From Pseudovirgaria hyperparasitica (Eukaryota > Ascomycota > Dothideomycetes > Acrospermales > Acrospermaceae), in assembly GCF_010093815.1 (NCBI RefSeq), contig NW_022985571.1:152888-216887 (forward strand): a stretch of DNA of 64,000 bases. The letters run 5' to 3'. Below, piece by piece: positions 1,504 to 49,332 of this stretch. The translations under genes were made by a program, and so were the position numbers. The notes beneath the pieces were generated by a model that was not told where the DNA came from, did not search any database, and worked only from the letters and a program-made list of their open reading frames with translations. How positions within the stretch are numbered: the stretch's first letter is position 1; every line of letters begins with the position of its first letter.

Positions 1504-1761
1504 TACTATTATTAATATTAAAGAGAAAAAACTTCTTATACCCTAACGGACTAAACTAGTTAATTCGGGGTAAAACAGCGATTTACATACATCAAATGAT
1601 AGAGCATACCGAGTATAATAACCTCCGACATACGTGCGTACGTATAGCGTATAATACACGACGATACTAACGTATAGAGACACTATATATATACGCTTAA
1701 AGACTCTTCGATAACACGAGCATAGACTATATCTAATAAATACCGACACGCCGACCCCCTT

Positions 1762-1792
1762 TTATTAGTTAAGGGCTACCCTTAACTAATAA
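1762..1792. repeat. 31-bp palindrome, LINE left end (centre CTA)
   Basis: Two perfect 14-base arms (TTATTAGTTAAGGG and its complement) flank a 3-base centre CTA. The RNA would form a 14-bp hairpin. It lies about 250 bp inside the 5' end of the LINE. Confidence 0.95.
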
Positions 1793-4700
1793 TTATAGCG
1801 GCCTTAGGCACCGACGTACCTCGGCTTCCACTAGGTATACCCCTAATACTAGTACGGTAGAAACGGCTATATAGCGGCATATTCTAGGACGATTAAACCC
1901 CCGTCTAATAAACGACGAATAACTAAGGGCGTATAATACTATAGATAATAGAGACGGAGGGGACCCCGCCCGGGGAGACCCTTCTAGATAAGATTAACTA
2001 CTAGATAGCACGTATAGAGGGGGAAGTCGAGAAGGGAGAAACGGCCCTCCTTAGTATCTTCCGGAACCTTATCTAGAATATTAGAGAGCTTACCATAGGA
2101 GTAAAACAGGCGCCGGAACTAGACCCGGAATCTAGACTAGATTATATAGAGGCTAGCCTATAGAGGATCTAGGAGGGCCTTATCTAGGGAAAACGCCCTA
2201 GTACGTGGGCATAGATCGCCGCACCTATAAGCGGAACAGCCATATTAGCTAAAATACTAAGGGCACCTACGGACGGGGCATATAGTATACGAGTTACTAT
2301 CTAGAATAAAGAAGTACTCATATAAGTCTAGTAAGCGTCCCTAAAGGACATTATAAATAAGATTAACGAATAGAAAGGGATATAGTTAAATATAGTGGCC
2401 GCCAAACTCACCCTAGAAGGTATAGTACTAACTACTACTACTAACACGGCCTAGTAGACTATCTTGCGCGACCCGAACGCGATTAACGACATCTTCCCTA
2501 GCGTGTCCGTCCACGTAACCACGTACCCGATATAGATATATACTATCTCTATCTAAGGACACGTTATTAGAGAAGACGATATCGAGCGAATAGAGTAATC
2601 TAATAAACCGAAGTACCCTAGGATTAAGATCGCGAAGGCGTAGTAGAAGAACGTCTAGGGGATTAAGATAAAATTAAAAAAGTACTCTACTATAATAGTA
2701 GAGCTTAGGGACCCCGCTCTCGCCTATAGAATAACGTAGGAGGGCTTCCTAGCCGAAGGAGAGCTACTTACGGCGGAACCATAGAATAGGGCATAGGTAA
2801 TGACGCAATGCTTCAACTATTAAGAATATAGACATACTAGGCAGAGGTGCTCTTAGAAGACCGCCTATAGGTAGTATAAATAGGGCTATAATACTAAGGA
2901 ATGCCCTTATAAGACGCAGAGCGACGAGACGCGAGATAGGGACATCGCTAAGTACTCTAACTACGACGGGAAACATCTATCCTAGTCGGTAACGTACACG
3001 AAACGTAAGTAGGTCGTAGAATATATTAACGCGATAAAGACAAGAGGAGTAAGATAGATATACTAAGCCATAAGGCCCTCGCTACCCTCGCCGCTATCCC
3101 TAACTTTACTTATAAATCTAGTAACTACCCCCCGAAGAGGAGAGGATAACACGTAATAGTATACTATATAGAGAAAGATAGGCCGACCCCGGGGTATACT
3201 CAAAGCTGCTACCGCGCGAGAATAATCACGCCTTAGCGCTACTAATATATAGACTTAAACTTTCTCTAGCACCTAATGAGGGCATAACATATACTTATTA
3301 TTATATAGGCGAACGTATAATATAAACGAGAAAACCAAGCGACGCTCCTAGAAGAGATAGAAGCCATAATAATAGCTATCTAGGAACCATATAAACACTA
3401 CTAAACCAATAAGCTAATAACACACCTAGAATACTATACCATCCACCCTACGGGCCCGGATAGGAGAGTTATGTTTTATATATATAAGTCGATCCCGCTC
3501 TTAGAATGGTCTTATACCGAACGTGATAACCTCCGGATAATACTATATCTCTAGATAAGTATAGGGCCTCTCTATATCTATAATATCTATAATTAATAGC
3601 GATCGCTTACGCTAGATAATATACTCGAGGGCACCACGACGCCGGGATAACACATCCTCCTAGGCGACTTTAATCTCTACTATAGATGGTAGGGAGGCCT
3701 AGCCGTCGCGAGAGAAGAACTTAGAGTAAGGGAACTATACACACGGTACCACGACTTCCTATACCTCCTTATACCCGTAGGGTAGATCACCTAGAGGAAA
3801 CATAAATAGGACGAGAACGGGTCTACGCTCGACCTTACCCTCGCCACCGAGTACATTAGCCATAGAGTATAGTACTACCGCCCAAGCCGGATATAGACGG
3901 ACTCCGACCACGAATATATAGAAACCGTAATAGACGTCTCTACTCTTAATAAATAATATAGAAAATAGCTATAGAAGGATACTAATTAGGATAAATACCT
4001 AGAGGACCTAGAATTAGTAATTCTAGACCCCTCTATAGTCGACGTATCCAACGGCCTAGCCATAGATAAGGCCGTGTAAGTCCTCCTTTAAGTATACTAA
4101 GCCATGAGAGATAAACACGTACTATACTAAATATATAGATCCCTAGAAGCGAGGGGTATACCTTAAATACGAGAGTATAGAAGAGACGCCCGTAGACTAT
4201 ATATATATATATACTATATCTAGACGACCGAGGCCTAGGAAGAGTAGAAGGAAGTAGTATAATATCGTAATAGGGCCCTCCGTAATAAATAATAAAAATA
4301 ATAGCGTATGATTACTAATAAACACACACGGTAAGCCGTAGGGCTATAGTGTATAGTAAAGTAGGCTAAGGGTATAGACGCGCCGACACCGCCGCTACTA
4401 ATACCTCCCCTAATATACTAAGAGAGAATATACTCTATAAGCCCGGAGAAGACGGAGATCTTATATAAAGTTATGTTCCCCCTCCCGGAGCTAGTAGACC
4501 TATTAGATATTAATAATACTAAATATCTAGATATAATCGATATCCCCTAAGAGGTTACCGAGGAGAATATACTCGACGCTATTAAAGTACTCCCGAATAA
4601 TAAGGCACCCGGACTAGATAGGATACTAAATAGATGCCTTAAACGCACTATACTAGCTACCCTACCGCTTATTAGTTATATATTTTAAGTATATATTAAG

Positions 4701-6571
4701 AACGGATACCACCCCTAAAGCTTCCGGGCCGCCTATACTATTATACTTCTAAAACTAGGGAAGAACCCTAGCTCCCCAAAAGGATAGAGGCTAATCGCCC
4801 TCCTCTTCTATCTTAGGAAGATACTAGAGGCTACGATTACAAAGAAGATAAGCGCCGTAGTATAGGAATATAACCTCCTCCTAGTAAACTAGAAGGCGAA
4901 GACTAGAAGCTCTCTAATTACCGCTATCTAATATATCCTCGAAGTCGTCTAGACCGTATAGAAGTAGGGACGTATAGTAACGCTACTCTCCCTTAACATG
5001 GCCGGCGCATTTAATAAAGTAAACCACACGAGACTTATCTATAACTTACGGAAGAGGCGTATACCCGTGTAGATTACGCGGTTTATATAGTCCTTCCTCG
5101 CTAAAAGAGTTACCTAGATATACATCTCTAGATATCGAAGTAAGTACGAGAAGACGGCTTACGGCATCCTATAAGGAAGTACTATCTCTCTAATCCTCTT
5201 CCTCTTCTTTACTATAGACCTTCTCTAGAGAATATAATATATAGAGGTAGTAGGATACGTAGACGATACATACCTTCTAGCCATTAATAATAATACTAGC
5301 CAAATATATAGACGACTCGAATAAGACCATAGAAGATATATCTAATAGGCAAAGCGCTACGGAGCAAAGTTCGCCCCTAAAAAGTACTAACTTATATACT
5401 TTATTAACCGCCGTAGGAAATGGGCTACTAGGGAAGGTAAGCGACGCCCTAGAATAGACGCCTTCGACGAACCGCCGACATAAAGTATACGCGTACTTAG
5501 CGTTATAATCGATAATAAGCTTAAATAGGGACCATAGGTAGTATATACCGTTTCTAGGGCCCTCTAGATAGAAGCTACTATATAACGGATTATAGCCTCC
5601 ACGTAGAGAACCGCCCGGGATAAGGTACGCTAGCTATATATATCTATAGTACGACCCGCCTTCACGTACGGACACGAGTGCTAGTATACGGCCCTTATAT
5701 AGACTAGGCGAATAAAGCTCGAATCTATATAGAACCGTATACTCCGTCTTATATTAGGCGTATATAAAGCTACTAATATAGTACTACTACGACGCGAGAT
5801 AGACGTTATAAGTATATATAACTTCTACTAGATATAGAGGGTAGTATACTTTACTAAATAATAAGCATAGGAACGTATAGAAAATATAGAATATACCTTC
5901 GCCGCGCTACGCGTGCGAGTTAGCGTATACTACTAAGTACTCTTATATATAGGCCGGACTCGACTATGGTATAAGTGCCCGATAGAAATAGACTTAAACT
6001 AAGTAGTATAAGAGATTAAGAATAACCTAGATACCCTTCTAGACTAATAGAGTCTTTAAGAGCTCGGATAAAGTATACGGTTATAGATCTAAGATAAGTA
6101 GAAAGAGACACTCCGGGCCTAGTGGGCCTCCTAGTAGAATAGATACCTAGAGTAGATCCGAGGACCATAGAAGGAGCTAAGTAAATAGATATATAAAGGG
6201 CTTATAAAGGCCTAGATATCTATACTTCTCTAAGCCCGAACGGGCGCTATAGAACTTCTATACTACCTCTATAAGAGAGGTATCCCTAACGTGTCTCTAT
6301 AGTATAAGGCGTGCGGCCGGAGAGGTATAATACGCTACTATCTTATAATATACCCCGATCTTCACACGTAAAGGCAGAAGCTTATCCACACGATAAGAAC
6401 CTCTAATATTATATGATAGCTTAATAAGTACCCTAAGGATATCTCCTAATAGATACTTATATATCTACTACTCCTCTAGTACTAGTAGACCTAGAAATAT
6501 ATACTAGAAGAGACCCGGTATACGCTAGTAGTAACCTAATATATACTGGAAGAACCCCGGGAGAACCCTAA

Positions 6572-6602
6572 TTATTAGTTAAGGGTAGCCCTTAACTAAT
6601 AA
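6572..6602. repeat. 31-bp palindrome, LINE right end (centre TAG)
   Basis: Exact reverse complement of the palindrome at 1762-1792: same arms, centre TAG instead of CTA. It lies about 240 bp upstream of the (TTA)n end, so the two ends of the LINE carry the palindrome in opposite orientation. Confidence 0.95.
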
Positions 6603-6841
6603 CCTCCGTACCTATACGTACTACCTAAGGGTAAAATAATAGTAATATAGGCTATAGGCTAATAGGCGTACTCTATAGCTATATACTTAAGACGAAATAG
6701 AGGTTTAACGAGATATAGTTATAGATATAAGGAAGTTTTTCCCTATAGGGTTTCTTCTTATATAGTGGCTTAGACTAGAGGAGGCATAGGCCTATAGAGT
6801 ACTACTCTATCTAGTTATATAATATTATTATTATTATTATT

Positions 6842-6854
6842 ATACTTTAGTTAT
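6842..6854. repeat. Target-site duplication, right copy
   Basis: Identical 13 bp to 1491-1503, directly after the LINE (TTA)n tail. Confidence 0.85.
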
Positions 6855-8115
6855 CTAGATATAATATATATATATATATATATATAGTCTCTAGGCTTCT
6901 TATCTATATTCTTATATTTAAGGTATACCCTTTATATCTAGAGACTTATATATTTAATATAGTATATATTTATCTCTAGTATTCTAGTAGACTTAAAGAA
7001 GAACTTATATAGCTCTATCTATAGCTAGACTATTAGATATATTAACTATAGAGAGATCTAGAATTACTAATTCTAGATTCTCTATATACTTTTTCTAGTT
7101 AGTATTCTTTTAGAGCTATCTCCCTTATTATTTATTAGATATAGATATATCTTCTATAGTTTCTATATACTTATAGTTAGAGTCTATCTATATCTTACTT
7201 AGATAGTAGTATTATACTCTATAGCTTATATATTTAGTAGTAAGGGTAAGGTTAAGTATAGATCCTTTCTTATTCTATTTATATTTCTTCTATATAACTT
7301 TTCTAATAGATATAAGAAGGTATAGAAGGTCTTAGTATTATATATATTATTCTTTTACTCTAAGTTCTTTTCTTATAACTATTAGATCTCTCTACTATCT
7401 ATAGTAAAGATTAAAGTTATCTAGTAGAATATATTATTCTAATATTATAATACTTTCTAGTATAGTATCTAGTATAAGTAATTCTTTCTAGTTATAAATA
7501 TTATAGATATAGAGAGACTCTAAATTTATCTAGAGATATAATATTATTTAGAGATTATCTTATTTTATATAGAACTACTCTAAGAGTAGAATTAATTTAT
7601 ATATATAGAATAGAACTCTTCTATCTAGGCCTAGAAGATAGATAGTATAGTACTCTAGATATATTATTAGTTTATTAGTTTAGTTATATTTATATAGTTT
7701 CTAGATAGCTATTATTATAGTATCTATCTCTTCTAAGAGTATTATCTAGTTTTCTTATTTATATTATATATTTATCTATATAATAATAAGTATATCTTAG
7801 CTTCTTATTAGATACTAGAAAATACTTAGATCTATATACTAGTAGTATTAAGGTATAATTATCTCTATATAGAAGCTATTTTAAGGATATCCCTAGATTA
7901 GTCTATCTTTCTCTACTTACTACTCTAAAGAGTTTTTAAGTATATATATATAATATCTCTATATATTAGTACTATTATATATTATATACTAGGTATATAT
8001 ATATTAGAAGTTATTATACCTAGTATACTCTATTAATTAATATATATAGATTACTATATTACTCTAAATTAACTAGTTTTAGTCTCTTAGAGTATAGAAA
8101 GTTTTTCTATCTAAT
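6855..8115 (-). mobile_element. RIP-degraded LINE, outer copy, 5' part with ORF1 deleted
   Basis: Continuation of the minus-strand LINE of 1-1503. It matches the endonuclease part of ORF2 up to about 7900, then jumps to the LINE 5' untranslated region (about 7920-8115). That end matches the other minus-strand LINE 5' ends near 30270-30380 and 51430-51615. The ORF1 region and the left palindrome are missing, so this copy has an internal deletion. Confidence 0.75.
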
Positions 8116-8985
8116 TAAAATTATAAGAAAATAAGTCTTTAAGTTAAAAAAAAGTATATAGCTATACTAGAGATAACTATACCCTATATAATAGATATAC
8201 TCTTTATTAGTATTAAGGTATAGAATATAAGTAAATCGTTAGTTAATTAGATTATAAGAACTAGATAGTATAGTAGTAAAGATTCTAAACTACTATTTAC
8301 TTATAACTCTATATCTATATATTATCTCTATATATATAGAAAGACTAGAGTTATTATATACTAGTATATATCTATTCTATAACTACTAAGTAGAGTTATA
8401 AGTATATAGAATAAATAGTTATAGAGTAAGAGACTAGATAAAAGATTATATAGATATATTTTTAATATTTAATAGAAGAATCCTTCTATTACTAAATCTA
8501 TATTATAAGTATATAATTTATAGTTTTAGATTAATAGATCAAATAATAGAAAATATAGATATATTTCTAATATTTAATAGAATAATAACTCTAGAAGTAC
8601 TAGAAATACTTAATAAGAAGTAGAAGAACTCTAGAATCTATTTAGAATAATACTAGAAGTACTAGAAAGTCTAAAAGTATTAGAAGTATTATTTAGTCTC
8701 TAATATAGATTATATATTATATAGAAATTATAATAGAAGATTATATAAGAGTTTCTATATCTATAGCTTTATCTTATATATTATAGCTTTAATAAGAGAA
8801 GATAAAGTTATTAGAGTACTACTCTATTCTATATAATATAGATTTTTATTATACTTAATATTATCTACTATAAGTAATTAGTTAGAATTTATCTAATAGT
8901 ATAATTAACTATTTTATTTATATAATTTAACTTAATCTATTATATATAATCTCTATACTAATTTCTCTATTCTATATATATATCT
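8116..8985. other. AT-rich RIP-type sequence, unclassified
   Basis: There is no open frame and almost no CpA/TpG. A direct repeat of about 30 bp (around 8450 and 8553, sharing the string atatttaatagaa) is visible. It may be an LTR or solo-repeat remnant, but no coding motif was recognised. It forms the upstream flank of the LRR gene at 9106. Confidence 0.5.
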
Positions 8986-9105
8986 ATGAATATCTTATCT
9001 TATCTACTATATATTACTATAAGTACACGTGTTTTGTCTTATCGTGTTGCTTGGTATATCACCTACCTTCAGTTTTCTCTTCACCACCTGACCACCTATC
9101 TGCCA

Positions 9106-10734
9106 ATGGCATCTCCTCCAAGTTCTCCACCACTGGCTATATTACCGCAGCGGCCCTCTAACAAACGTCAACGCTCCGGTGAAGTTACCGACTTCTTCTC
9201 TAGTGATCCTGCGCCCGTCTTCTCCTCAGATGACTGGCAAGATGCGTCGATAGAGCAGTATGAAGCACCGCGGAGGAAGAGAACATTCAGGGGCCCATGG
9301 TGGAAAAGCTGCAAGAGATGGGAGCCTGCAACTATGCTGACATCAGAATCCCATGTGATGTCCCTAGCAAGGAACCTTGACAGCGGTGTATGGATAGACA
9401 ACGATGATAGCATTGCGTTATCGTCCTCTTTATCGACTCTACTTAACGGCCCTACTACTACCGATACCTCCTATCAATTGACATTTTGTCCTGATTGGCA
9501 GCAAAAATACCCAGCGCCATTACTTTCACAGGCTGAGCTGCAGGCTCAAGGATTAGTCGAAAGTTGCCTCGAGCAAGGCACGCAATATGTCGACATGAGG
9601 TATGTATGGTCTTCAAACCATGGTCATAGGATTCTGATTTCAAGCAGCAACTTGGGCTTGGAAAAATTAGATGGGAGCATAATCCAGCCGATTAGGGCTT
9701 TCAGTACTGTTCCCATGGCATGCGACCGCGACTTCCGACCACAACTTAAGATCCTATTGTCAATGAACTCTCTTCAAACTTTGCCGAAAGAAATCTGGGA
9801 GCTAAATCATATCGTTCACCTCGGTTTACGTCAAAACAGATTAGAGACCTTATCCCCCAACATAGCAAAGCTCGTAGATCTACAGTCCCTCGACATCACT
9901 GGAAATAAAATCCGCTGGCTTCCATGGGAGCTTCTATCATTGATCACCCCGTCGAGGAGCCTGGCGATGTTTCACGTGGAGCACGGAAATCCCCTACTCA
10001 TGCCATTCGAAGGCTTGCCCGAGTTCCCATCATGTATACGTGAACTAGCCATAGGCCACCATCAAGATTTTGTACAAACCAAGCCCGAGACCAATTCCGG
10101 CCACGCAACTGAGATGCAGAGGTGGCTTTGCAGAATCGGTGAGACAATCCATGCAGGCAAATTATATGGTGAGGGTTTATCTAACAGCCACTGTATACCC
10201 TCAAAGCCGTGGCTCGTAGGATGCTCGGAAATGGCCCGCTTTAGTAGCGATGGTACACTCGCTAACGGTTCACCAATTGCTCCTTCACTCGTACCTCTAG
10301 AACAGAGATCATTAAAGGCGTATTTGGTGGACGATCTGCCCCAGCCACAACGAATATCTTGTAGTCGTGTGGGCTCTCTTTTTGAGCTCTCACTTCGAAG
10401 AGTAACAGCGTTAATATCTACAGAGCAACTTCGGAAATATGTACCAGATCTCCCAGAAGGGCCCTTCCAGCGTGCTCTTACAGAGGCTGAACACGTTCAA
10501 GCTGACGGAGGTCGTACTTGTTCTGTTTGTGGCCAATTGTACATCCTTCCTCGAGCAGAATGGATGGAATTTTGGCATGTTCATCGCTCTGGAGCTACGG
10601 CTGGCATCAACGGCCATCTTCTCCCATTTCTCCGAAGAGCTTGTAGTTGGCGCTGCGGATACACCGCCTTCTGTAATATAAGGAGTGCATATGGTAGATA
10701 CGCCGCTAAGTGTACTATAAATTCATTTCCATAA
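9106..10734 (+). CDS. Leucine-rich-repeat protein with C-terminal CxxC...CxxxC motif
   Basis: A single open frame of 542 codons. The frame extends upstream to an ATG at 8986, but those 40 codons lie in RIP-type AT-rich sequence. The start at 9106 (MASPPSSPP) begins where composition becomes normal, so I chose it. The protein has a basic and Ser/Pro-rich N-terminus and short leucine-rich repeats at about residues 213-280 (L..LP.EIW.L, then L.L..N.L..L, then L..LDI.GN.I..LP). A Cys motif lies near the C-terminus (C472-x2-C475 and C513-x3-C517), possibly zinc-binding. No signal peptide is seen. LRR proteins of this kind usually mediate protein binding, and the function is not known to me. The gene is alone in a 1.8-kb island between RIP'd repeats. 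No intron is evident. Confidence 0.8.
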   Translation: MASPPSSPPLAILPQRPSNKRQRSGEVTDFFSSDPAPVFSSDDWQDASIEQYEAPRRKRTFRGPWWKSCKRWEPATMLTSESHVMSLARNLDSGVWIDNDDSIALSSSLSTLLNGPTTTDTSYQLTFCPDWQQKYPAPLLSQAELQAQGLVESCLEQGTQYVDMRYVWSSNHGHRILISSSNLGLEKLDGSIIQPIRAFSTVPMACDRDFRPQLKILLSMNSLQTLPKEIWELNHIVHLGLRQNRLETLSPNIAKLVDLQSLDITGNKIRWLPWELLSLITPSRSLAMFHVEHGNPLLMPFEGLPEFPSCIRELAIGHHQDFVQTKPETNSGHATEMQRWLCRIGETIHAGKLYGEGLSNSHCIPSKPWLVGCSEMARFSSDGTLANGSPIAPSLVPLEQRSLKAYLVDDLPQPQRISCSRVGSLFELSLRRVTALISTEQLRKYVPDLPEGPFQRALTEAEHVQADGGRTCSVCGQLYILPRAEWMEFWHVHRSGATAGINGHLLPFLRRACSWRCGYTAFCNIRSAYGRYAAKCTINSFP

Positions 10735-10933
10735 CAAGAGGATTAAGATAGAGACATAGTATATTAGGAATTAGCTATGAACGGAGCCCTTAGGCACGTG
10801 TGTAGGACGTGTCCTTCCATATGTGTTTTCGACTTTATAAGTAATGTTCTCTACCCTTAAAGTAGTTTAACATATCTACTAATAAGCTAACCTACTAATA
10901 AATATTATAATTTAAGTATAACTCTAAATATCT
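10735..10933. other. 3' flank of the LRR gene and island edge
   Basis: Normal composition ends at about 10860, only about 125 bp after the stop codon. RIP-type sequence follows, up to the (TAA)n end of a minus-strand LINE. Confidence 0.6.
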
Positions 10934-11118
10934 ATAATAATAATATTATTATTATATAACTAGGTAGAGTAGTTTACTCTATAGATATATACCTTCTCTA
11001 GTCTAAGCTATTATATAAAGAGAAACCCTTTTTTTAAAAGAAAAAACTCTCTTCTCTTTATAACTATATCTTATTAAGTCTATATATCTTCTTAAGTATA
11101 TAGCTATTAGATATATCT

Positions 11119-11131
11119 ATAGATCTATAAT
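11119..11131. repeat. Target-site duplication of SINE, left (atagatctataat)
   Basis: These 13 bp are repeated exactly at 12084-12096 and bound the SINE on both sides inside the minus-strand LINE 3' region. Confidence 0.85.
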
Positions 11132-12083
11132 TAGCTAGATAGTATAGTAGTAGTATACTATATTACTAGAAGCGTTTATTATCTAATATTATAGGTTTAA
11201 ATTCTATAATAGCTACCTTTTTATATACTAGTTTTTATATACTCTACTAAAGATATATAGAGTTAAGTAAGTATATAATATAAAGATTACTATTATATAA
11301 TTACTTAGTTCTAAGTAATAGTTAGATAATATAGTAGTATTATATAATAAAATTATCTAACTTAGCTATCTATCTATACTACCTTAAGTAGTAGAGCTAA
11401 GTCTAGAGTAGCTAGATCTAAAAAATCCTACTTAGCTTAAATTATAGAATATATATATAGAGCCTTATCTATCTCTATAGAGTCTTATCTACTCTAATCT
11501 AGCTTAGCTTATACTTACTCTAGCTTAGTAACTATAAAATAGATAGTAGTATCTAATTAAGTATTCTATCTACTAATAGATAATTATATAGTTCTAAAGA
11601 ATAATTTCTAAATTTAGTCTAGCTAGGGTTAGTACTAAGGCACGGACCTATTAGATATATACCCTCTCTAGTATTAGTTATCTTAATTAATAACTAATAT
11701 CTAGCGTAAAGCTATATTTCTATAGATAGAAAAAACCCGGTAGTATAGAAATAATAGACTAGGCCTAGCCTAGTAATCTATCTAATTATAGAAGAGATAA
11801 TACTTACTATAGTTAGTTAGGGTATTATTAAGAGCTAATACTAATATAGTAATAAAAAAGTCTAATTTTAAAAAGAATAAGAAGTAAGTTTATTATCTAA
11901 TAGAATTTAAGAACTTAGACTAGACTAGGTTAGATTAGTAATAGGGTCTAGTTAGAGAGCTAATTATAGAAGGTTTTCTTATATATATAGTAGCTTAGAC
12001 TAGAGAAGGTCTATACCTATAGAATATATATATAGCTATATATATAGTTCTTCCTAGTTAAATACTAATATTATTATATTATT
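11132..12083 (+). mobile_element. tRNA-derived SINE with LINE-like 3' tail
   Basis: A 952-bp insertion flanked by 13-bp target-site duplications. The 5' end looks like a RIP-mutated tRNA gene: an A-box-like stretch at 11140-11154 (tagtatagtagtagt), a B-box-like GGTTTAAATTC at 11194-11204 (GGTTCAAATCC after C-to-T changes), and a T-arm stem around it. The last ~110 bp (about 11970-12083) resemble the LINE 3' end (cttagactagag..., then TA-rich, then TTA repeats). A second copy lies on the minus strand at 52548-53489. It is non-coding and was probably mobilised by the LINE family of this window. Confidence 0.82.
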
Positions 12084-12096
12084 ATAGATCTATAAT
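12084..12096. repeat. Target-site duplication of SINE, right
   Basis: Exact copy of 11119-11131. Confidence 0.85.
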
Positions 12097-12145
12097 CTAT
12101 ATTACTATTATTTTATTCTTAGATAATATATATAGAGTATAGAGA

Positions 12146-12176
12146 TTATTAGCTAAGGGTTACCCTTAGCTAATAA
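12146..12176. repeat. 31-bp palindrome variant, minus-strand LINE 3' end
   Basis: Same position in the LINE as 6572-6602. The arms read TTATTAGCTAAGGG with matching changes on both sides and centre TTA, so base pairing is kept despite two substitutions. Confidence 0.9.
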
Positions 12177-12980
12177 TTAGAGTTCTTCTAGAGTTCTTCT
12201 AGTATATACTAGAGTCTATCTAGTATATATCTAGTTTCTTCTAGTATATATATTAAGATCTACTAGTACTAAGAGAGTAGAAGATATATAAGTATTTACT
12301 AGATAATTTTCTTAAAGTACTTATTTAGCTAATATATAATATTAGAGGTTCTTATTATAGAATAAGTATTTATCTTTATATATAGAGATCTAGATATATT
12401 ATAAGATAGTATTATATTATATATCTCTAATTATATACTTTATACTATAGAGATATATCTAGAATATCTCTCTAGTATAGAAAGTATAAAAGTTCTATAG
12501 CTTCTATTTAGGCTTAGAGAAGAATAGATATTTAGACTTTTATAAGCTCTTTATATATCTATTTACTTAGTTTCTTCTATAGTTCTTAAATCTACTCTAA
12601 ATATCTATTCTATTAGAATATCTAATAGACTTAAAGAGCTTCTTTCTACTTATTCTAGATCTATAATTATATAGTCTATATAAGTTTTTAAGGGTTCTAC
12701 TAGTATAAGAAGGTATCTAGATTATCTTTAATCTCTTATATAATCTAACTTAAGTATATCTCTATTAGATACTTATATTATATTTAAATCTAGTCTATAT
12801 ATAGAAGTACTTAATAGTAGATACTAACTTATATATATAGTATAGTAAAAGTATATTCTATATATTCTATATATTTCTATACTTATTATTTAATAAAGTA
12901 TATTACCCTCTATATCTAGTAGAAGTTCTATATATTTATTATATTTATCTTATATTATAGTAGTACTATATTAGTAGCTT

Positions 12981-12995
12981 TATATATACTAGATA
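12981..12995. repeat. Target-site duplication, left (tatatatactagata)
   Basis: 15 bp repeated at 19467-19481, partly merging with the TTA tail there. It delimits the 6.5-kb LINE insertion. Confidence 0.8.
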
Positions 12996-14182
12996 GGCTA
13001 CGAAGCCTTATAAACCGCGTCCACGTTATCGTAGCTAGGCAATGCCTCTATAGAGGTAGTAAGAGATTCGGAGCGGCGTTAATAGTAACCTAGTCGTCGC
13101 TAGATAGATGGTTAAAGAGTTTTCGCGGAGCGTCTACCTTACTAAACCACGCTAATATAACCTAGCTAGGGAAGTATATACTTCTATTCTATCCCTAATA
13201 AACGCGTTAAGAGAAGTTCACGAGAATAAAGGGATAAGAAAACCATCTAACGCGCTACTACTATGTCGAAAGTAGGCCTAAATCTATTTTACTAACTAGG
13301 TAGAGGAAGCGGAGATTCTAGTAGCGTGATAGGATACCTTAAGGCTTAAACGGCTCTAGGAACGTAAGGAACACGTCGAGGGTAACTAAGAAACTACTAC
13401 TAGAAGAACTTATTAAAGCTAACTCTTCTATAGTATTAAACTACGTTTATTAAGCTATCTAGTACGACTACTAGTAGTATAACTCTATTAAGACCTTTCG
13501 CTCGATACGAGATACTACTTTACTACTAATAGGTAGAGTAGCTCCCGCGTACGAGAGATGTTATAGTCTACTATAGAAGGTGGGATACTAGAGTATATAG
13601 ATAATAGTATATAGATATAGATAGGAGGCAGCTATAGGGACCCTTTAAGAGTAGTAGAAATAAGTCGGGTTAGTAGGAAGAGAATACCTAAGTCGCCTAG
13701 GCGTATATACGTAAGGGATTTAGAGGATACTCTCCTATAAGATATAGTTAGCCTATTATAGAGAGATCCTTATAGGTAACACGAAACTAAAAAGTAGTAA
13801 TACTTAAAGGCGGGGCGTGGTATATAGTAGTAACTACTAGCTCTAAGGACCTTACCTCTTTAATAGGCTCTAACCCTTAATATATCTAGAAGTAGATAGA
13901 ATTATATTCTAGCTAGAGAGACTACTATATAGCCTAAGAGAACGGATATATATATTAATTTATAAAGAGATAGAACGTATCGCCTATAAGGCATATACGC
14001 TAGTATTATAAGTTTAAGGAGTAAACCTTATAGTTACCTAGCTAGGAGAGGCTTCGGTTACCTCTCCTAGTAGAGCCGGAGGTATAAGCCTAGAGGGAAT
14101 AAGATAAGGCGAAAACAGGAGTAGGGCCTAATGGTATAGGGCACGTCGAACCTATAGGAGTTATCTAACTCCGAACTAGAGG
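12996..14182 (+). repeat. Alternative LINE 5' module, ending in tRNA-like sequence
   Basis: The reverse complement of 49702-50905 matches it over the whole length. It starts ggctacgaag and ends ...aactagagg just before the LINE-common sequence cctaacgg. Near its 3' end the stretch CCTAATGGTATAGGGC (about 14129-14144) resembles a tRNA D-arm/A-box. A possible protein-coding origin was examined but not recognised. Copy 1 of the LINE has another 5' sequence in this place. Confidence 0.7.
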
Positions 14183-14402
14183 CCTAACGGACCAAACTGG
14201 TTAATTCGGGGTAAAACAGCGATTTACATACATTAAACAATAGAGTACACCGAGTATAACAACCTCTAACACACGTGCGTACATGTAGCGTATAATACAC
14301 GATAATACCGACGTATAGAGATACTATATATATACGCTCGAAGACTCTTTAATAATATAAGTATAGACTATATCTAATAAACGCTAATACGCTAACCCCC
14401 TT

Positions 14403-14433
14403 TTATTAGTTAAGGGCTACCCTTAACTAATAA
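14403..14433. repeat. 31-bp palindrome, left end of long LINE (centre CTA)
   Basis: Identical to 1762-1792, at the same position in the LINE. Confidence 0.95.
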
Positions 14434-17400
14434 CTATAGCGGCCTTAGGTATCGTAATACCCCGGTATACGCCGGATATACCCCTACTAGTATAGTAGAA
14501 ACAGCTATATAGCGATATTAATATAGATAGCTAGATATCTATCTAAAATATAGGAACTAACTAAGGGTGCGAAGCGCTATAGATAACCTAGACTAAGGGG
14601 ACCCTAAGAGAGAAGACCCTCCTAGATAAAATTAAATACTAGATAATATATATAGAGAGGGACGCCGAGGAGGGAAAGAAGACCCTCCTTTATATATTCT
14701 GAGACCTTATCCGGAATCTAAGAGAAATTATAGAGGAAGAAAGGAAGTCGTTACGAGAGGAACCTAGTAGTAGACTTAACTAAATAGAAGCTAGTCTACG
14801 GAGAATCTAGAAAGAGCTATTCTAAGGTAAGCGCCCTAACACGTAGGCTTAGATTATAGTAACACCTAGAGCTACTATACTAAGGACTACTAGGACTATA
14901 GATAGAGTATATAGTATATATATCGTAATCTAGGATAAGGACACGCTAGCGTAGGTCTAATAGGTATCCCTAAAGGAAATTATAAATAAGATTAATAAAT
15001 AGAAAGGAATATAGTCGAGTATTATAGCTACTAAAGTTACGCTAGGTAGGGTAGTACTTACTACTATAACGAATACTACGTAGTAAAACATCTCGCGAGA
15101 TCTAAACGTGATAGGTAGTATCTTCCCCGGCGCGTCTATTAGGGTAGCTATATATCTAATTATAGTATATATAGTACCCGTATAGGGATAGGCTATTAGA
15201 GTAGAGAATATTACGTGTATAGAATAATCTAACACGCGAAAATATCTAGGGATTAAGATTATAAAAGCGTAGTAGAAGAATCTATAGACGATTAAGACGA
15301 CGGCGAAAAAACACTCTACTATAATTATAGAGCTCTAAGACCCCGCCCTTATATAATATATTATATAGAAGGGATTCCTAATAGAAGGAGAGCTCCTTAT
15401 AGCCGAGCTATAGGATAGAGTATAGATAATAATATAGTGCTTTAACTATTAAGGGTATAGATATACTATATAAAGGTACTTATAGAAGACTAAGTACGGA
15501 TAGTACCGTAGGGACTATACTATCTAGAAGTGCCCTCACGAACCGCAAGGAGATAGACTAAGAAATAGAGATATAGTATAGTATTTAAACTACGACGGGA
15601 AATACCCGTTATAGTCATTAATATATATAAAATATAAATAGGTTATAGAATATATTCGCACGATAAAAGCGAGAGGCGTAAGATAGTTATAGAATATAAT
15701 ACCTACCACGAGCCCTTCCTTTATAATACCCCTAACCTCCTCTCTAGAAGGTAGTTAGGTAGGATAGTAGACTATTCTAAAGATAATAGAATAACTAAAA
15801 GGCATAGTTAAAGCCGCTACCGCGCGAGGATAGTCGCCCCTCTAAGGAATAAGTATATAGGTATATATACTCTCTAGTACCTAATAAGGGACTAGAATAT
15901 ACTCCGAATTATATAGATAAATATATAATATAAAAGAGAGAACTAGGCGACGCTTCTCAAAGAGACTAGGGCTATAATACTTACTATCTAGGAACCCTAT
16001 AAATACTACTAGACGAGTAAACTAACTATACACCCCGGATACTATACTATACACCCTCTAGGACTAGAAAGACGAGTCCTCTTCTATATTTATAGGTTAA
16101 TACTACTCTTATTATAGTTATATACTAAGCGCGATAACCTTAGAATAATACTATACCTATAAATAGATATAGGCCCTCTATATATATATAATATATATAA
16201 CTAATAACGTGTACTTATACTAGACGAGATGCTCGAGGGTACTACGGAACTAGGGTAACATATCCTCCTAGAAGACTTTAACCTCTACTACTAATAGTAG
16301 GGAGGCCTAGCCGTAGTTAGAGAAGAACTTAGAGTAAGGGAACTACGTACCCGCTACCACGACTTTCTATACCTACTTATACCTATAGAATAAGTTATAT
16401 AGAAAAAACATAAATAGGACGAAGACGGGTCTACGCTTAACCTTACCTTCGCTACGAAGTATATTAGTTACCGGATCTAATACTACCGCCTAGGCTAGGT
16501 ATAGACGGATTCCGACTATAAATATATAGAAACTATAATAAACGTGTATACCCTAAATAAATAACGGGGACGATAGATATAGAAGGACACCGACTAGGAA
16601 AAGTACCTAAAGGACCTAGAATCGGCGATTCTAGATCCCTCTATAGTCGATATATCTAACGACCTAGCCATAGACTAGGCCGTATAGACACTCCTATAAA
16701 TATACTAGAATATAAGAAATAAATATATACTATACCGAATATACCGGCCCCCGGAAGTAAAGGGGATTCCTTAAGTATAGGAAAGTAGATAAGACGTCCG
16801 AAGGCTATATAGACGCGTATACTATATAAGAATACCCGAGTCATAGAAAGAATAGAAGGAAGTAATATAATAACGTAATAAAGTCCTCTATAATAAAAGG
16901 CGTAAATAGTAGCGTATAATTACTAGTTAATAGATATAATATATAATAGGGCTATGGTATATAGCGAAATAGGCTAAGGGCGTAGATACTCCGATACCCC
17001 TACTACTTATACCTCCCCTAATATATTAGGGGAGAATATACTCCACGGGCCTTAAGAAAACTAAGGCCCTATAGAAGGCCATGTTCCCTCTCCTAGAACT
17101 AGTAGACCTATTAGATGTTTACGGCGCTAAATACCTATACGTAGTAGATATCCCCAAAGAAGTTACGGAGGAGGACATACTTAATATTATTAAGACACTC
17201 CTAAATGATAAAGCACCCGGACTAGATGGAATTCTAAATTAATACCTAAAAAGTACTATAAAAGCGACCCTACCGCTTATTACTTATATATTCTAAGTAT
17301 ACGTCACGTAGGGGTACCACCCCTAGAGCTTCTAAGTCGCCTATACTATTATACTCCCGAAACTAGAAAAGAGCCCTAACTCTCTAAAGGGATAGAGACT

Positions 17401-19179
17401 AATCGCTCTTCTCTTCTACCTAGGTAAGATACTAGAGACTATAATAGTAAAGAAGATAAGTACCGCGGTATAGGAATATAATCTCCTCCCTCTAAACTAG
17501 AAGATAAAGGTAGATAGCTCTCTAATAATAGCTATCTAATATATTATTAAAGTCGTCTAGGCCGCATAGAAATAGGGACGGGTAGTATCGCTTCTCTCCC
17601 TCGATATGGCCGGAGCGTTTAATAAGGTAAACTATATAAGACTTATTCATAACCTCCGGATAAGACGAATACTAGAATAGATTATATACTTTATATAGTT
17701 ATTCCTTATAGGAAGAATAACTTAGATATATATCTTTAGATACTAGAGCGAATATAAAGAGACGGTATATAGTATCCTATAAGGGAGCACCATCTCTCTA
17801 ATTCTATTCCTCTTCTTTACGGTAGACCTTCTTTAAGAAATAAAGTATATAGAGGTAGTTGGATACGCTAATAATATATACCTTCTAGCTATCGATAATA
17901 ATACTAACCGAACGTATAGACGACTAGAATAGGACTATAAGAGGTGTCTCTAGTGGGTAAAACGCTACGGAGCAAAGTTCGCCCTAGAGAAATACTAGCT
18001 TATATACTTTATTAATCGTTAAGGGAAATAGATAACTAGGGAAGGCGAACGACGCCTCTAAATTAACGCATTTAACGAACTACTAGTATAAAGCATGTAC
18101 ACGCTTAGAGTTATACTAGATAGTAAGCTTAAATAGGGACTATAAGTAGTATACGCCGTCTCTAGGGCTCTCCGGGTAGAAGCCGCTATATAATAGATTA
18201 TAGTCTCTATATAGGGAACCGCCCGGGATAAGGCACGCTAGCTATATATATCTATAGTACGACCCGCCTTTACGTATAGACACGAGTACTAGTATACGGC
18301 CCTTATATAGACTAGGTAAATAAAGCTTAAATCTATATAGAACCGTATACTCCGTCTTATATTAGGTGTATATAAAGCTACTAATACGGTGCTACTACGA
18401 CACGAGATAGACGTTATAAGTATATATAACTTCTACTAGATATAGAGGGTAGTATACTTTACTAAATAATAAGTATAGGAATATATAGGAAACGTAGAAT
18501 ATACTTTCGCCGTACTACGTGTATAAATTAGTATATATTACCACGCACTTCTATATATAGACTAGAATCGAATACGGTATAGGTACTTAATAGAAGCCGA
18601 CTCTAGCTAAGTAGTATAAGAAGTCCGAGATAACCCGGACGCTCTTCTAGACTAGTAGAGCCTTTAAGAACTTATAAAAAATATACGGTTATAGACTTAA
18701 GATAAGTAGAAAGAGGTACTCTATACCTACTAGACCTCCTAGTAGAATAGGTACCTAGAGTAGATTTAAGGGCTATAGAAGAAACTAAGTAAATAGATAT
18801 ATAAAGGGCTAACGAAAGCCTAAGTATCTATACTCATCTAAGCCCGAACGGGCGCTATAGAACTTCTATACTATATCTATAAGAGAGGCGTTCCTAATAC
18901 CTCCCTATAGTATAAGGTATACGGCCGGAGAGATATAATATACTACTATCTAGCTATATACCCTAACCTCTATATATAACGGTAATAGCTTATCTATATT
19001 ATAAAGACTTTAGATATTATATAATAGCTTAATAAGTACCCTAAGGACGTCTCCTAATAGATACTTATATATCTACTACTCCTCTAGTACTAGTAGACCT
19101 AGAAATATATACTAGAAGAGACCCGGTATACGCTAGTAGTAACCCGATATATACCGGAAGAACCCCGGGAGAACCCCGA

Positions 19180-19210
19180 TTATTAGTTAAGGGTAGCCCT
19201 TAACTAATAA
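19180..19210. repeat. 31-bp palindrome, right end of long LINE (centre TAG)
   Basis: Identical to 6572-6602, at the same position in the LINE. Confidence 0.95.
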
Positions 19211-19427
19211 CCTCCGCATCTACACGTACTACCTAAGGGTAAAATAATAGTAATATAGGCTATAGGCTAATAGGCGTACCCTATAGCTATATACTTAAGA
19301 CGAAATAGAGGTTTAATAAGATGTAGTTATAGATATAAGGAAGTTTTTCTCTATAGGGTTTCTTCTTATATAGTAGCTTAGACTAGAGGAGGCATAGGCC
19401 TATAGAGTACTACTCTACCTAGTTATA

Positions 19428-19430
19428 TAA

Positions 19431-19466
<36 letters not shown>
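19428..19466 (+). repeat. (TTA)n tail of LINE
   Basis: About a dozen TTA units at the 3' end of the long LINE. It is equivalent to the poly(A)-like tail seen as (TTA)n or (TAA)n at the other LINE ends. Confidence 0.9.
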
Positions 19467-19474
<8 letters not shown>

Positions 19475-27970: not shown

Positions 27971-29352
27971 AATAAGAGGTTAGAAGATTAGCTTCTTATA
28001 GAATAGAATAAGATAGAAAGTACTAATATTATAGAAATATTTAAACCTCTTAAGTCTAAAATAACTATACTTAATAAAAGTATTCTTAAACTTAGTAGAC
28101 TAGAGTTTAAGATATATAAGTACTACTAGTAGAGATATAATAATAAGTTAAACTATAGATAGCTATATACTATCTACTACTTCTATATCTAGTAGCTACT
28201 CTACTAATATTCTATATACTAGCTTATCTATATAGTCTATAGATCTAATTATAACTATTATCTAATTTTATATCTATATTATATAAGGTTCTAGGGACTA
28301 GAAGATAAAACTATATTCTAGTATCTAGATAACTTAATTAACTAGATACTAGACTCTAATAACTACTATAGTACTAATATAATTTAAAGTAGTATTAGTT
28401 TTAATAATAAGTAAAAAGATAACTATACTATTATTATTCTATAATTATATAAATTTTTAGAAGAATAGTAGATCTAGATAAAGCTCTATCTAGAAGTTAA
28501 TAGATATAGTATAATTACTACTATTAATAATAAGATCTATAATATAGAGAATAAGAAGAGATTTAGTCTATTTATATCTATATCTTATAAGACCCTTAAG
28601 GTCTATATATCTAGCCCTCTAATAATATATAGTACTCTAGAACTAGTAAAGAGAGTAAGATATATAATACTTCTATAGTATATCTCTATTAGTTCTAACT
28701 ATATAATAATAGAGATACTAGAAATAGATACCTAGAAGTAGCTTATAGTAGTATATAGAAATCTAATACTAGAGTCTATATCTCTATCTAGTTTCTTAAA
28801 TAAGTATAGCGCTATTCTATATACCTTTTCTACTACTATCTAGCTCTTAAGTTCTAATATAGTAAGTAAGACTCTTATTAGCTAGAAAAGATAGAATAGC
28901 TAGAAAGTATATAAGAAGACTATTATATAGCTTAATACTAGACTCTAGAAGTTAAAATAAAAGACTAACGCGTGGTTTAAAGACGCTACTAAGGTATTTA
29001 TAGAAACTTTAATAAAGATAGTAGAACTAGAGAGAGAGATCTATAAGAATAGATTATTCTAGAAGGAATTTAATAAGGCTAGAGGTAAGAAGTAGTCTAT
29101 TAACTTTAAGAAATATCTATCTAATACTAGACTATCTAATAATATAAAGAACTTCTATAGATAGAAGAAGTCTAAGAGAATCTCTAATAATAATAATTCT
29201 ATTCTATCTAAACTAAGTAATATAATTCTTAAAGAGCTAGCTTAGAATCTTAAAGACTAAGAATAGATATCTAAATCTATCTAATTATTAGTTAAGGGCT
29301 ACCCTTAACTAATAATCTAGACTAATATTTATCTATAATAACTACTTATTAT
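27971..29352 (+). other. RIP-degraded coding repeat of unknown family
   Basis: No open frame. Around 28970-29280 one plus frame reads as protein-like with stops where Trp would fit (for example F-K-D-A-T-K-V-F-I-E-T-L), so this was once coding. The family is not recognised. It ends in the 31-bp palindrome at 29285 and then the assembly gap. Confidence 0.5.
29285..29315. repeat. 31-bp palindrome outside a recognisable LINE
   Basis: Identical to the LINE left palindrome (centre CTA). The preceding sequence does not match the LINE 5' region that precedes the other left-end copies. The 37 bases left before the gap are too few to decide. Confidence 0.9.
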
Positions 29353-34644: not shown

Positions 34645-35030
34645 AATAGATAATAATAATAATAATATTATATAACTAGGTAGAGTAGTTTACTCTATAG
34701 ATATATATCTTCTCTAGTCTAAGCTATTATATAAGAAGAGACCTTTTAAAAGAAAAAACTCCCTTCTCTCTATAACTATATCTTATTAAGTCTTTATATC
34801 TTCTTAAGTATATAACTATAGAGTATATTTATAGATCTATAATCTATATTATTATTATTTTATTCTTAGATAGTATATATAGAGTATAGAGGTTATTAGT
34901 TAAGAGCTATCCTTAACTAATAATTAGAGTTCTTCTAGAGTTCTTCTAGTATATACTAGAATCTATCTAGTATATATCTAGTTTCTTCTAATATATATAT
35001 CTAGATCTACTAGTATTAAATATTAGAACT
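34645..35030 (-). mobile_element. 5'-truncated LINE, 3' end only (minus strand)
   Basis: It begins with (TAA)n and runs through the 3' region with a palindrome variant at 34893-34923. It stops matching at about 35030, so only the last ~385 bp of the LINE are present, as is usual for truncated target-primed insertions. Confidence 0.8.
34893..34923. repeat. 31-bp palindrome variant (34893)
   Basis: TTATTAGTTAAGAG-CTA-TCCTTAACTAATAA. One base near the centre of each arm has changed; the outer 12 bp still pair. Confidence 0.9.
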
Positions 35031-36881
35031 TAGTCTTATATATAACTAGATCTATATATATCTTAGCTAACTTAGTTAGAAGATAGTATAATAAATAGTA
35101 AATAGTTATATACTAAATAGATTAGTATCTCTTTATATATATACTCTTAGATTTCTACTAAAAGAGTTTAGTAGTAATTTATTCTATAATAGAATATACT
35201 CTATTAATCTATCTAACTATACTACTATCTAATTACTCTATTCTTATATTTAAATTACTCTCTATATAGTACTATAGTTAAGATAGTTTAACTAGAATTA
35301 AGAAGATTAATATTATCTACTATAGAGATAAGTAATACTATATTAAATAATAGAAATTCTCTATAATTAGTATTAAATCTAGCTATTTCTAACTAAGAAG
35401 TAGAGATATTAGACTAAATTATAGAACTTTCTAATAAGTAAATAATAGATATACTAAGTAACTTCTAATAATATAAAGCTAGATAATAAGTTATAGTAGA
35501 GCTATATAAGATATTATAATAAACTATTACTAAACTATAGAAGTATATTACTAATTAAGTCTAAGAGATTTAGATTCTTAAAGAATAGACTAAATATATA
35601 AAACTTCTTATAAAAAGATAAGACCTTAAAGAGTCTCTTAAAGAACTATACTAAATAGTAGTAGCTAAATAACTTTCTATACTAATTTAGATAGAACTAG
35701 TTTATTCTCTACTAGAGTTATAATAATCTTCTATAATTCTAGCTACTTTATTACTAACTTACTCTATTCTATCTCTAGATATACTAAAATCTAAGAATCT
35801 AACTATATTTATAGAGAAGAACTAAAAGAAGTAGAAAGACTAGAAGAGAGACTATAAAAAGTACTTTCTTAATAACTCTCTACTCTTTTCTACTAAAGTA
35901 TATTATATTTTATTTAGAGAATAATAACTAGATTTATAATTCTATAATTAATAGAATAGATAGAAGAAAGTATAGCTACTATCTATAATAACCTAGAAAT
36001 ATTTAGCTATATTTATACTAAATACCCTTAGAATAAATAGAGAATATAAAAGAAAGATACTATCTAAGTTAAGAAGTATAGTATAATAACTAAACTAGAT
36101 ATCTACTTAACTACTATAATATCTATAAAACCTATAGAATAATATTTCTATACTATAGAAAAATATTTATATATTCTAGTTTTATAAAGTACTACTTCTA
36201 TTAATCTATAAAAGACTAGAAATAGTATTATTAAGTTTTAATTATCTATATAAATTAGAGAAGAAAGCTAATTAATACTACTATATTCTTAAGAAATATA
36301 GCTCTCTAAATAAAACTAATAAACTCTATATAGATTAGAAATAAGATTAATTAAATATATTTAATTAAGAGTAATCTTACTATAATTAATACTAGAAGAG
36401 TATAAATTAGAGAAGAAACGTATTAAGAGAATACTAAAATAATTAAAATAGTAGTTCTTAATATAGAAAAGAATAAGATATAGACTTAAATATAATATCT
36501 ATTATAAAATAGTAGAATTATAGTATACTTTATTACTATAAGTATAGAGAAATAGAATATATTTTATCTAACTATAAGAATCTAAAAAAAGAATAGACTA
36601 GTATATAAGATCTAACCACATTCTTAGCTAAATTATATATAATTAGAAGAAGCTATAGCACCTTCTAGCAAGTAAAGACCTAATATTACTAAAAATATTA
36701 TTATCTATAGTAAATAGTAATAAAACTATATAGACCCTTATAGATACTAGTATAGAAGATAACTATATCTTATTAATTCTTATAAAGAAGTATAGATTAT
36801 TATATAATCTTAGTAAAGTTAGCTAAACTATTATAGTTAATAGATATAAAGTTAGAACTTTAGATAAAGCTATAATAAATT
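35031..36881 (+). mobile_element. RIP-degraded Gypsy element D, LTR end, gag and protease
   Basis: 35060-35260 matches the complement of about 59450-59700 and looks like an LTR end. It is followed by a Lys/Glu-rich gag-like stretch and a Cys-to-Tyr-mutated knuckle region near 36480. A protease motif (T-L-I-D-T) lies at about 36740. The element is broken at 36882 by a minus-strand LINE and apparently resumes at 42065. Confidence 0.65.
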
Positions 36882-37116
36882 ATAATAATAATAATAATAA
36901 TATTATTATATAGCTAGGTATAGTAGTACTCTATAGATCTATACCTTCTCTAGTCTAAGCTACTATATAAGAAGAAACTCTATAGAGAAAAACTTCCTTA
37001 TATCTATAACTATATCTTATTAAACCTCTATTTTATCTTAAGTATATAGCTATAGAGTAGTCTATAGTCTATATTACTATTATTTTATCCTTAGATAGTA
37101 TATATAGGTATAGAGG

Positions 37117-37147
37117 TTATTAGTTAAGAGCTACCCTTAACTAATAA
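37117..37147. repeat. 31-bp palindrome variant (37117)
   Basis: TTATTAGTTAAGAG-CTA-CCCTTAACTAATAA: one mismatch between the arms. Confidence 0.9.
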
Positions 37148-40100: not shown

Positions 40101-41077
40101 TAGCTTAACTATAAGAAGCTCTTCTTCTACTAGAAATTCCTTCTATATAATATATTATATAAGAGTAGGGTCTTAGAGCTCTATAATTATAGTAGAGTGT
40201 TTTTTTACTATTATCTTAATTATCTATAGGTTCTTCTACCACGCTTTTATAATCTTAATTCCTAGGTACTTTTATATATTAGATTATTCTATATATATAA
40301 TATTCTTTACTCTAATAGTCTATCTCTATATAGATACTATATATACTATAATTAGATATATAGCTACTCTAATAAACACGCTAGAGAAGATACTATCTAT
40401 TATATTTAGATCTCACGAGATATTTTATTATATAGTATTTATTATAGTAGTAAGTACTACTCTATCTAGTATAACTTTAGTAGCTATAATACTTAACTAT
40501 ATTTCTTTCTATTTATTAATCTTATCTATAATTTCCTTTAGGGATATCTATTAGATCTACGCTAGCGTGTTCTTATTCTAGATTATAATATATATATTAT
40601 ATACTCTATCTATAGTTCTAATAGTTCTTAGTATAGTAGCTCTAGATATTACTATAATCTAAGTCTATATATTAGGGCGTTTACCTTAGAATAGCTCTTT
40701 CTAGATTCTCTATAGACTAGCTTCTTCTTAGTTAAGTCTACTACTAGATTTCTCTTATAATAACTTTCTTTCTTTCTCTATAATATCTCTTAGATTCTAG
40801 ATAAGATTCTAGAATATATAAAGAAGGGTCTTCTTTCTCTTCTTAGCGTCTCTCTCTATATATATTATCTAGTATTTAATTTTATCTAGAAGGGTCTCCT
40901 CTCTTAGGATTCTCTTAGTCTAGATTATCTATAATACTTTATACTCTTAGTTAGTTTCTATATTTTAGATAGATATCTAGCTATCTATATTAATATTACT
41001 ATATAGCCGTTTCTACTATACTAGTAGAGATATATCTAGTATATACTAGAGTATAGTAATACCTAAGACTACTATAG

Positions 41078-41108
41078 TTATTAGTTAAGAGCTACTCTTA
41101 ACTAATAA
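41078..41108. repeat. 31-bp palindrome variant (41078)
   Basis: TTATTAGTTAAGAG-CTA-CTCTTAACTAATAA. Both arms carry the same change, so pairing is perfect. Position corresponds to the LINE left end. Confidence 0.9.
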
Positions 41109-41199
41109 AAGAGAGTTAGTATATTAGTATTTATTAGATATAGTCTATACTTATATTATTAAAGAGTCTTTAAGCGTATATATATAGTATCTCTATATA

Positions 41200-49317: not shown

Positions 49318-49332
49318 CTATCTATTAGTATA
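49318..49332. repeat. Target-site duplication, left (ctatctattagtata)
   Basis: Repeated exactly at 50906-50920. It bounds the 1.57-kb element. Confidence 0.88.

Follow-up and report, generated by a model that had tools for sequence, protein, structure and literature searches.

What could a 31-bp palindrome be doing near both ends of a fungal long interspersed nuclear element (LINE)? The question was raised by a 64,000 nt stretch of the genome of Pseudovirgaria hyperparasitica (contig NW_022985571.1, positions 152,888 to 216,887; hereafter, the window), in which an earlier note had recognized such palindromes at ten places and had read them as a terminal inverted repeat confined to the LINE. 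The motif is indeed present at all ten places. However, the same palindrome also lies inside an unrelated Gypsy-type element, which contradicts both its confinement to the LINE and its reading as a LINE terminal inverted repeat: two unrelated retrotransposon families carry it as an integral part. We propose that the palindrome is inherited and acts as nucleic acid, forming a hairpin at the borders of coding regions that would promote strand and template switching, a reading to which we assign a probability of roughly 0.35.

Seven repeat stretches were strongly affected by repeat-induced point mutation (RIP), with TpA/ApT ratios of 1.56-1.74 and (CpA+TpG)/(ApC+GpT) ratios of 0.01-0.27, compared with 0.62-0.81 and 1.2-1.3 in two window genes. 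In un-RIPed copies (genome loci compared are labelled L, contigs are labelled C, and W1 is the window LINE copy at 1526-6860), the 31 bp read TTATTAGTCAAGGG-CWG-CCCTTGACTAATAA, exactly so in L002, L064 and L065 and one base off in L004. It follows that C-to-T and G-to-A changes in the two arms gave rise to the common window form, and RIP of CTG and CAG to its CTA and TAG centres. Allowing up to three mismatches, 531 palindromes were found in the scanned genome (35.03 Mb, 59 contigs) and none with a reversed-pattern control. Within the window, eight places of 31 bases had all 14 of 14 arm pairs complementary, and no such place was found in any of five dinucleotide-model shuffles. The palindromes are real and occur far above chance expectation. 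The hairpin folding suggested previously agrees with prediction: the 31-mer RNA had a predicted fold of -18.1 kcal/mol (z -6.1), and the hairpin was retained in the predicted folds of three longer un-RIPed contexts. Six loci gave no Rfam match at gathering scores.

The identification of the element as a LINE was correct, as an RVT_1 reverse transcriptase domain was detected on the plus strand (E 2.5e-14 in L027 and 1.1e-32 in the un-RIPed L004) and copies end in simple-repeat (TTA)n tails. In L064, the one case checked, a 5'-truncated LINE 3' end of ~460 bp lies between copies of ATAATCTTGTT at 96 and 564, an 11-12-bp target duplication around a recent-looking insertion. The element is a candidate member of the Tad1 clade, a label suggested by the fungal host and the (TTA)n tail. 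The 5306 bp copy L027:1264-6569 has palindromes starting at 238 and 5015, the latter ~240 bp from the 3' end of the element. With up to two mismatches, the left flank of the 5' site matched 165 places genome-wide and that of the 3' site 319, a number that may include Gypsy B (described below). Among the matches listed for contigs C1-C24, 37 of 87 exact 5' sites had an exact 3' partner (75 listed) 4.73-4.82 kb downstream in the same orientation, against three wrongly arranged pairs at that spacing. Full-length copies therefore carry the palindrome near both ends at fixed places, as had been claimed, which rules out a palindrome at one end only; its fixed positions in two families likewise rule out an independent small repeat at random places.

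Within the window, the near-full-length, RIP-mutated W1 (1526..6860, plus strand) consists of a subfamily a 5' untranslated region (UTR), a third-lineage (c) body and an a-like 3' part. Its 5' palindrome (1762..1792, centre CTA) lies 2 nt upstream of the ATG position of the first open reading frame (ORF1), which reads ATA after RIP, and its 3' palindrome (6572..6602, centre TAG) includes the position of the ORF2 stop, which un-RIPed copies spell GAT TAT TAG. A second near-full-length, RIP-mutated copy, of subfamily a (14183..19470, plus strand), has its 5' and 3' palindromes at 14403..14433 and 19180..19210. They lie at 41078..41108 and 37117..37147 in a RIP-mutated subfamily a copy on the minus strand (36872..41197), whose 5' end meets N at 41200 and whose 5' palindrome has its centre flipped relative to other a-type 5' copies. 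Further 3' palindromes belong to a LINE fragment (12146..12176), with a T-A to C-G change on both arms and 14/14 pairs retained, and to a heavily RIP-mutated LINE 3' fragment (34893..34923). Finally, a composite on the minus strand (49329..51641) comprises a LINE 5' end, ~1.2 kb without a LINE match and a subfamily a LINE 3' end, with palindromes at its 5' end (51348-51378) and its 3' end (49571-49601). The composite may be a non-autonomous LINE derivative. Window 12983-14182 contains a further copy of its non-LINE part (83%), and the stretch 49329-49962 is matched by L066 at 85%.

Most of the genome loci studied were chosen through the palindrome search itself, and a palindrome-free test was made in window and genome with flanks lacking the palindrome as probes. 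In the window, the palindrome was present at 4/4 LINE 5' sites and 6/6 LINE 3' sites where homology extended to ~40 bp of the site. Five other LINE-like stretches end 53-145 bp before the expected site and lack the palindrome there; two more point into N and were left out of the census. Genome-wide, all checkable matches carried the palindrome, four of four for the 5'-flank probe (40 of 187 candidates scored) and five of five for the 3'-flank probe (40 of 249 candidates scored), checkable matches being those in the range fully covered by the listing of 531 places.

The second palindrome-bearing element is ~11.3 kb long and has a repeat of ~368 bp at both ends (L042-L043), as expected of long terminal repeats (LTRs). 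An RT_RNaseH domain was detected in L040 (element minus strand) and again in L035. At the thresholds used, six frames of L040 and one frame of L035 gave no reverse transcriptase or integrase match, and three frames of L043 gave no match to a gag domain. The LTRs together with the RNase H domain led us to take the element as a Ty3/Gypsy-type LTR retrotransposon. Palindrome A lies ~150 bp inside of the 3' LTR, palindrome B is 7.3 kb from A, and a degenerate palindrome, C, lies ~500 bp inside of the 5' LTR. Flank comparison placed 50 of 50 listed exact palindromes either in the LINE, at its 5' or 3' site, or in the Gypsy-type element; these are 50 of the 531, and the other 481 are not all classified. 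Identical arms thus occur at four sites of two unrelated families (LINE 5', LINE 3', Gypsy A and Gypsy B), with A and B seen in RIPed spelling only and in no un-RIPed copy. In the window, a relative (67-68%) of the Gypsy element around palindrome A (28018..29331, plus strand) carries an eleventh palindrome (29285..29315), which the first inspection had overlooked.

The positions of these sites relative to reading frames proved informative. Detection of ORFs by stops common to all copies failed, as too many RIP stops are held in common, and was replaced by base-composition phase and by transversion phase, the latter read between LINE subfamilies a and b, since RIP makes no transversions. The ORF1 phase fits the ATG position lying 2 nt downstream of the 5' palindrome; we infer the exact ORF1 start, codon periodicity being weak or absent before ~position 500. 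The ORF2 phase fits the TAG in the 3' palindrome, and in all three un-RIPed copies (L004, L064 and L065) ORF2 ends Y-stop, with the TAG inside the palindrome. A TAT TAG stop, that of the last ORF, also lies inside Gypsy A, according to the codon phase of the window relative. From C to B, nine of nine windows (one marginal) share a best base-composition phase, which is the frame of the ATG 10 nt after B and of RNase H, and the un-RIPed palindrome has no stop in the frame in which B would be read. By this phase, Gypsy B lies between the gag position and the RNase H-bearing reading frame, with the frame running through it. The idea that palindrome B supplies a gag stop codon was dropped, as the stretches flanking B share one frame. 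Base-composition and transversion phase also suggest that a further long ORF (L035 ~6070-8833) may follow the RNase H-bearing frame in another frame and end at palindrome A; its frame gave no domain match, as scanned in L040 only. Differing reading frames at different sites argue against a peptide-level motif, a reading that we rejected, and because the frames differ the palindrome probably acts as nucleic acid. This anatomy, one palindrome at coding-border sites of two unrelated retrotransposon families, is solid and is best shown in the LINE.

Conservation of the palindrome against its flanks, a check proposed in the earlier note, was compared between un-RIPed L064 and L065. In the ORF2 part 38/166 sites differ (104 gap columns set aside), in the 3' UTR 26/206 (42 gap columns set aside; 5/60 in the first 60 bp and 21/146 in the remainder), and in the palindrome 1/31, the centre only, leaving 0/28 in the arms. 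By our own arithmetic, the chance of 0/28 is ~0.001 at the ORF2 rate and ~0.02 at the 3' UTR rate. The arms thus stand out clearly against ORF2, and only mildly against the 3' UTR. Around the 5' palindrome (-24 to +51), transversions between subfamilies a and b were found only at the centre and at one palindrome-adjacent base.

The arms are self-complementary, and orientation is therefore readable from the centre base alone. With a-type flanks, the centre was T in 10/11 5' copies and A in 18/19 3' copies; with b-type flanks it was A at both the 5' (6/6) and the 3' site (3/3), and the un-RIPed L065 3' site has T. The opposite orientation reported for the two LINE palindromes rests on this one base, which flips between copies, and its CTA/TAG spelling is explained by RIP; the claim is not robust. 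A/T flips occurred in 2/30 a-type copies, with three other minority transversions in the near flanks. In the 5' a-type set (-85 to +50) the flip is the sole minority transversion, and the three others belong to the 3' a-type set (-40 to +99), beyond which 41/45 come from the disrupted copy L051. The form with both arms changed at window 12146 is the sole exact match to itself genome-wide, and C30:146046 fits it at one mismatch. This change may represent arm-to-arm correction or true compensation.

These observations are consistent with a model in which the palindrome would fold into a hairpin during copying and allow the polymerase or reverse transcriptase to pass from one arm to the other; such switching would keep the arms alike and flip the centre base. 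More rarely, the enzyme would jump to another transcript with the same hairpin, and such jumps would pass UTRs, coding modules and the palindrome itself between elements. The strand- and template-switch mechanism is weakly supported. Compared with subfamily a, W1 shows 0/236 transversions in the 5' UTR and 49/417 in the body, and L050 shows 1/236 and 26/277. The first body-type difference in W1 and L050 is 21 bp after the palindrome. The switch point falls in the interval from the palindrome centre to +52, provided that the centre base is reliable, and otherwise between -25 and +52. In addition, at L002:1157-1210 (C47:10991-11044) un-RIPed Gypsy pol ends at the edge of a palindrome, to which it is joined along with 22 bp of LINE 5' UTR; L008, a relative of L002, continues past the joint and matches the RNase H stretch of L001. 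Microhomology at the joint was not borne out, as the joint looks blunt and the sequence is different there in L008 and L016. The wider idea, that a portable hairpin shared by the non-LTR and LTR retrotransposons of one genome serves as an exchange signal, by which UTRs and coding modules are swapped through reverse transcription, strikes us as rather doubtful.

Several observations weigh against the proposed switching. Exchange events are few: the W1 and L050 swap is probably a single event, with 0/277 transversions between the two bodies, and it cannot be placed within -25 to +52, a block nearly alike in all subfamilies. LINE recombination also took place at other points (near position 1000 in L041 and near 4000 in W1), and no jump in divergence between subfamilies a and b was seen at the 3' palindrome (20/250 before, 21/238 after). 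L002 could be a DNA-repair product, given the 8-bp inverted repeat CTGCGCCG/CGGCGCAG at its outer joints. No centre flip was found in 22 Gypsy A and B copies, and at least four places (L004, L066, window 49571 and C7:1639640) still carry an uncorrected A-to-G change on one arm. As for the coding borders, the composition-phase method misjudged the phase in some LINE calibration windows, and parts of Gypsy pol gave a mixed one. The data do not show the palindromes to be general recombination boundaries, as an excess was not established and other breakpoints lie elsewhere; six sites considered as chimeras at the palindrome (L048:679, L051, L066 and window 12146, 34893 and 49571) were rejected, their breaks being ~40-150 bp away. 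The recombinant L041:1788-7082 (C3:410688-415982) is of subfamily b to ~position 1000 and of subfamily a from there to its end.

An old, now extinct insertion is a live, if tentative, rival to the switching hairpin. A tiny insert of 25 bp (TTAGTCAAGGG-CWG-CCCTTGACTAA) plus a duplicated TA might have landed several times in retrotransposons and been a passenger since. Removing 27 bp leaves TTAA at LINE 5', LINE 3', Gypsy A and Gypsy B, and the 27 bp are in frame, with a stop codon left after their removal in LINE ORF2 and in Gypsy A. The ends of the palindrome also recall what we take to be the inverted repeats of fungal Fot1/pogo elements. However, none of the 50 listed exact copies is free-standing, and Gypsy C is without the TA on one side. 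Empty sites numbered zero for LINE 5', and for LINE 3' a single two-mismatch match was obtained, the same as in the control; Gypsy empty sites were not sought. The independent copies, target duplication and empty sites that together would mark a miniature inverted-repeat transposable element or other mini DNA transposon were not found among the 50 classified copies and the LINE sites.

We regard it as unlikely that the palindrome is a DNA-level site for a two-fold symmetric host protein, such as a transcription or chromatin factor, exploited by both elements. Its exact sequence is kept beyond what pairing demands, and centres outside Gypsy C mostly fit CWG before RIP, which would give 15-bp DNA half-sites; TTAGTCA resembles what we presume to be a fungal bZIP/Yap1 site. 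Stop-codon and gag/pol positions are nevertheless odd for a promoter site, and no copy outside the elements was found among the 50 classified. The single arm TATTAGTCAAGGG occurs at 28 places genome-wide, 13 inside listed palindromes and 15 not, and the single arm TTATTAGTYAAGGGR at 80, many of which resemble Gypsy C by the next base. These places are unclassified and leave room for host half-sites or decayed copies. Among the matches listed, single arms or altered palindromes of the form TTATTAGTYAAGGGG occur at C1:9927, C1:54199, C1:73353, C6:914741, C6:930345, C7:1665397, C9:1459680 and C15:850827, of which C1:54199 is at a LINE 3' end.

An RNA stem-loop read by the element's own proteins, as first proposed and as in stringent LINEs, appears improbable. 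The accessible part of PMC5135761 reports stringent LINEs with recognized stem-loops, the LINE 3' region here keeps long identical blocks across subfamilies, and the one-arm A-to-G change retains a G-U pair. On the other hand, the palindrome does not lie at the very 3' end, as a stringent-type stem-loop does, but falls ~240 bp short of it, and the Gypsy copy would require a second, unrelated reader protein. Most arm changes fit RIP on both strands, and the sole two-sided non-RIP change, at window 12146, is without a second exact match in the genome. RNA circularization and ORF1-protein recognition, two further roles suggested for the LINE hairpins, are unsupported, and nothing was found in their favour. 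A second small inverted repeat, GTAGAGTACTACTCTAC, lies a short way ahead of the (TTA)n tail at L064:516-532, and is the same in L004 and one centre base off in L065; it is a candidate for the 3' stem-loop that stringent LINEs usually have. Translation control by a hairpin at start and stop codons, through reinitiation or pausing, is very unlikely: it would suit sites 2 nt ahead of the ORF1 ATG position, over the ORF2 stop and between gag and pol, but the LINE ORF1/ORF2 junction, the place of greatest use for such a hairpin, lacks one, and the sequence identity exceeds the needs of a generic hairpin.

If the palindrome is an exchange or recognition signal, it offers a handle on LINE 5' UTR swaps and on the trading of parts between LINE and LTR elements. 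Should it be no more than a passenger insert whose perfection is maintained by copying between its arms, it would still illustrate, in a clean natural setting and against a RIP background, how a palindrome is corrected and inverted.

Beyond the palindrome-bearing elements, the window contains a separate, extremely RIP-mutated repeat family (20962-23023, 44447-46508, 27464-27970 and 53648-54221) with copies up to 96% identical, and window 20962-28000 holds only 3 CpA and 1 TpG. Stretches of N lie at 29353-30262, adjoining the palindrome at 29285, and at 41200-42064, where a LINE copy has its 5' end. Open host-type genes were found in islands of higher GC at 8962-10734, 31118-32896 and 57369-58697; they encode a leucine-rich repeat protein (under the curated cut-off), a ubiquitin hydrolase with zf-UBP and a WD40 protein.

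To our knowledge, there is no other case of unrelated retrotransposons with a common exact 31-bp cis-element at coding-region edges. Judged by title and the start of the abstract among the matches listed, the literature held no description of such an arrangement, and the matches to the motif letters were unrelated works. Related structures have been described. The accessible part of PMC5135761 covers stem-loops in the 3' UTR of stringent-type LINEs and their short interspersed nuclear elements (SART1, UnaL2, ZfL2 and R2, with Tad1 in fungi). As there, a hairpin lies in the LINE 3' part and the 3' region is conserved across subfamilies; unlike the stem-loops described in that part, ours is a perfect 14-15-bp palindrome that spans the ORF2 stop ~240 bp short of the end, recurs ahead of ORF1 and is common to an LTR element. 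A further system, as far as its accessible description goes, has stem-loops both in its 5' UTR and close to the end of ORF2, as here, but its structures differ by position and no sharing with an LTR element is described. The Magnaporthe LINE MGL forms template-switch chimeras (MINE), according to the accessible part of PMC2104539; it too is a fungal LINE with chimeras involving other transcripts and preferred switch positions, although the MGL switch consensus given there is a GCC motif and not a palindrome, and L002 joins a LINE and a Gypsy element. Lastly, the Conserved Hairpin Site known from GalEa Copia elements of fungi (PMC5445492, accessible part) is likewise a short conserved palindrome with a hairpin in a fungal retrotransposon, but it is 9 bp long, lies beside the 5' LTR and belongs to one Copia clade.

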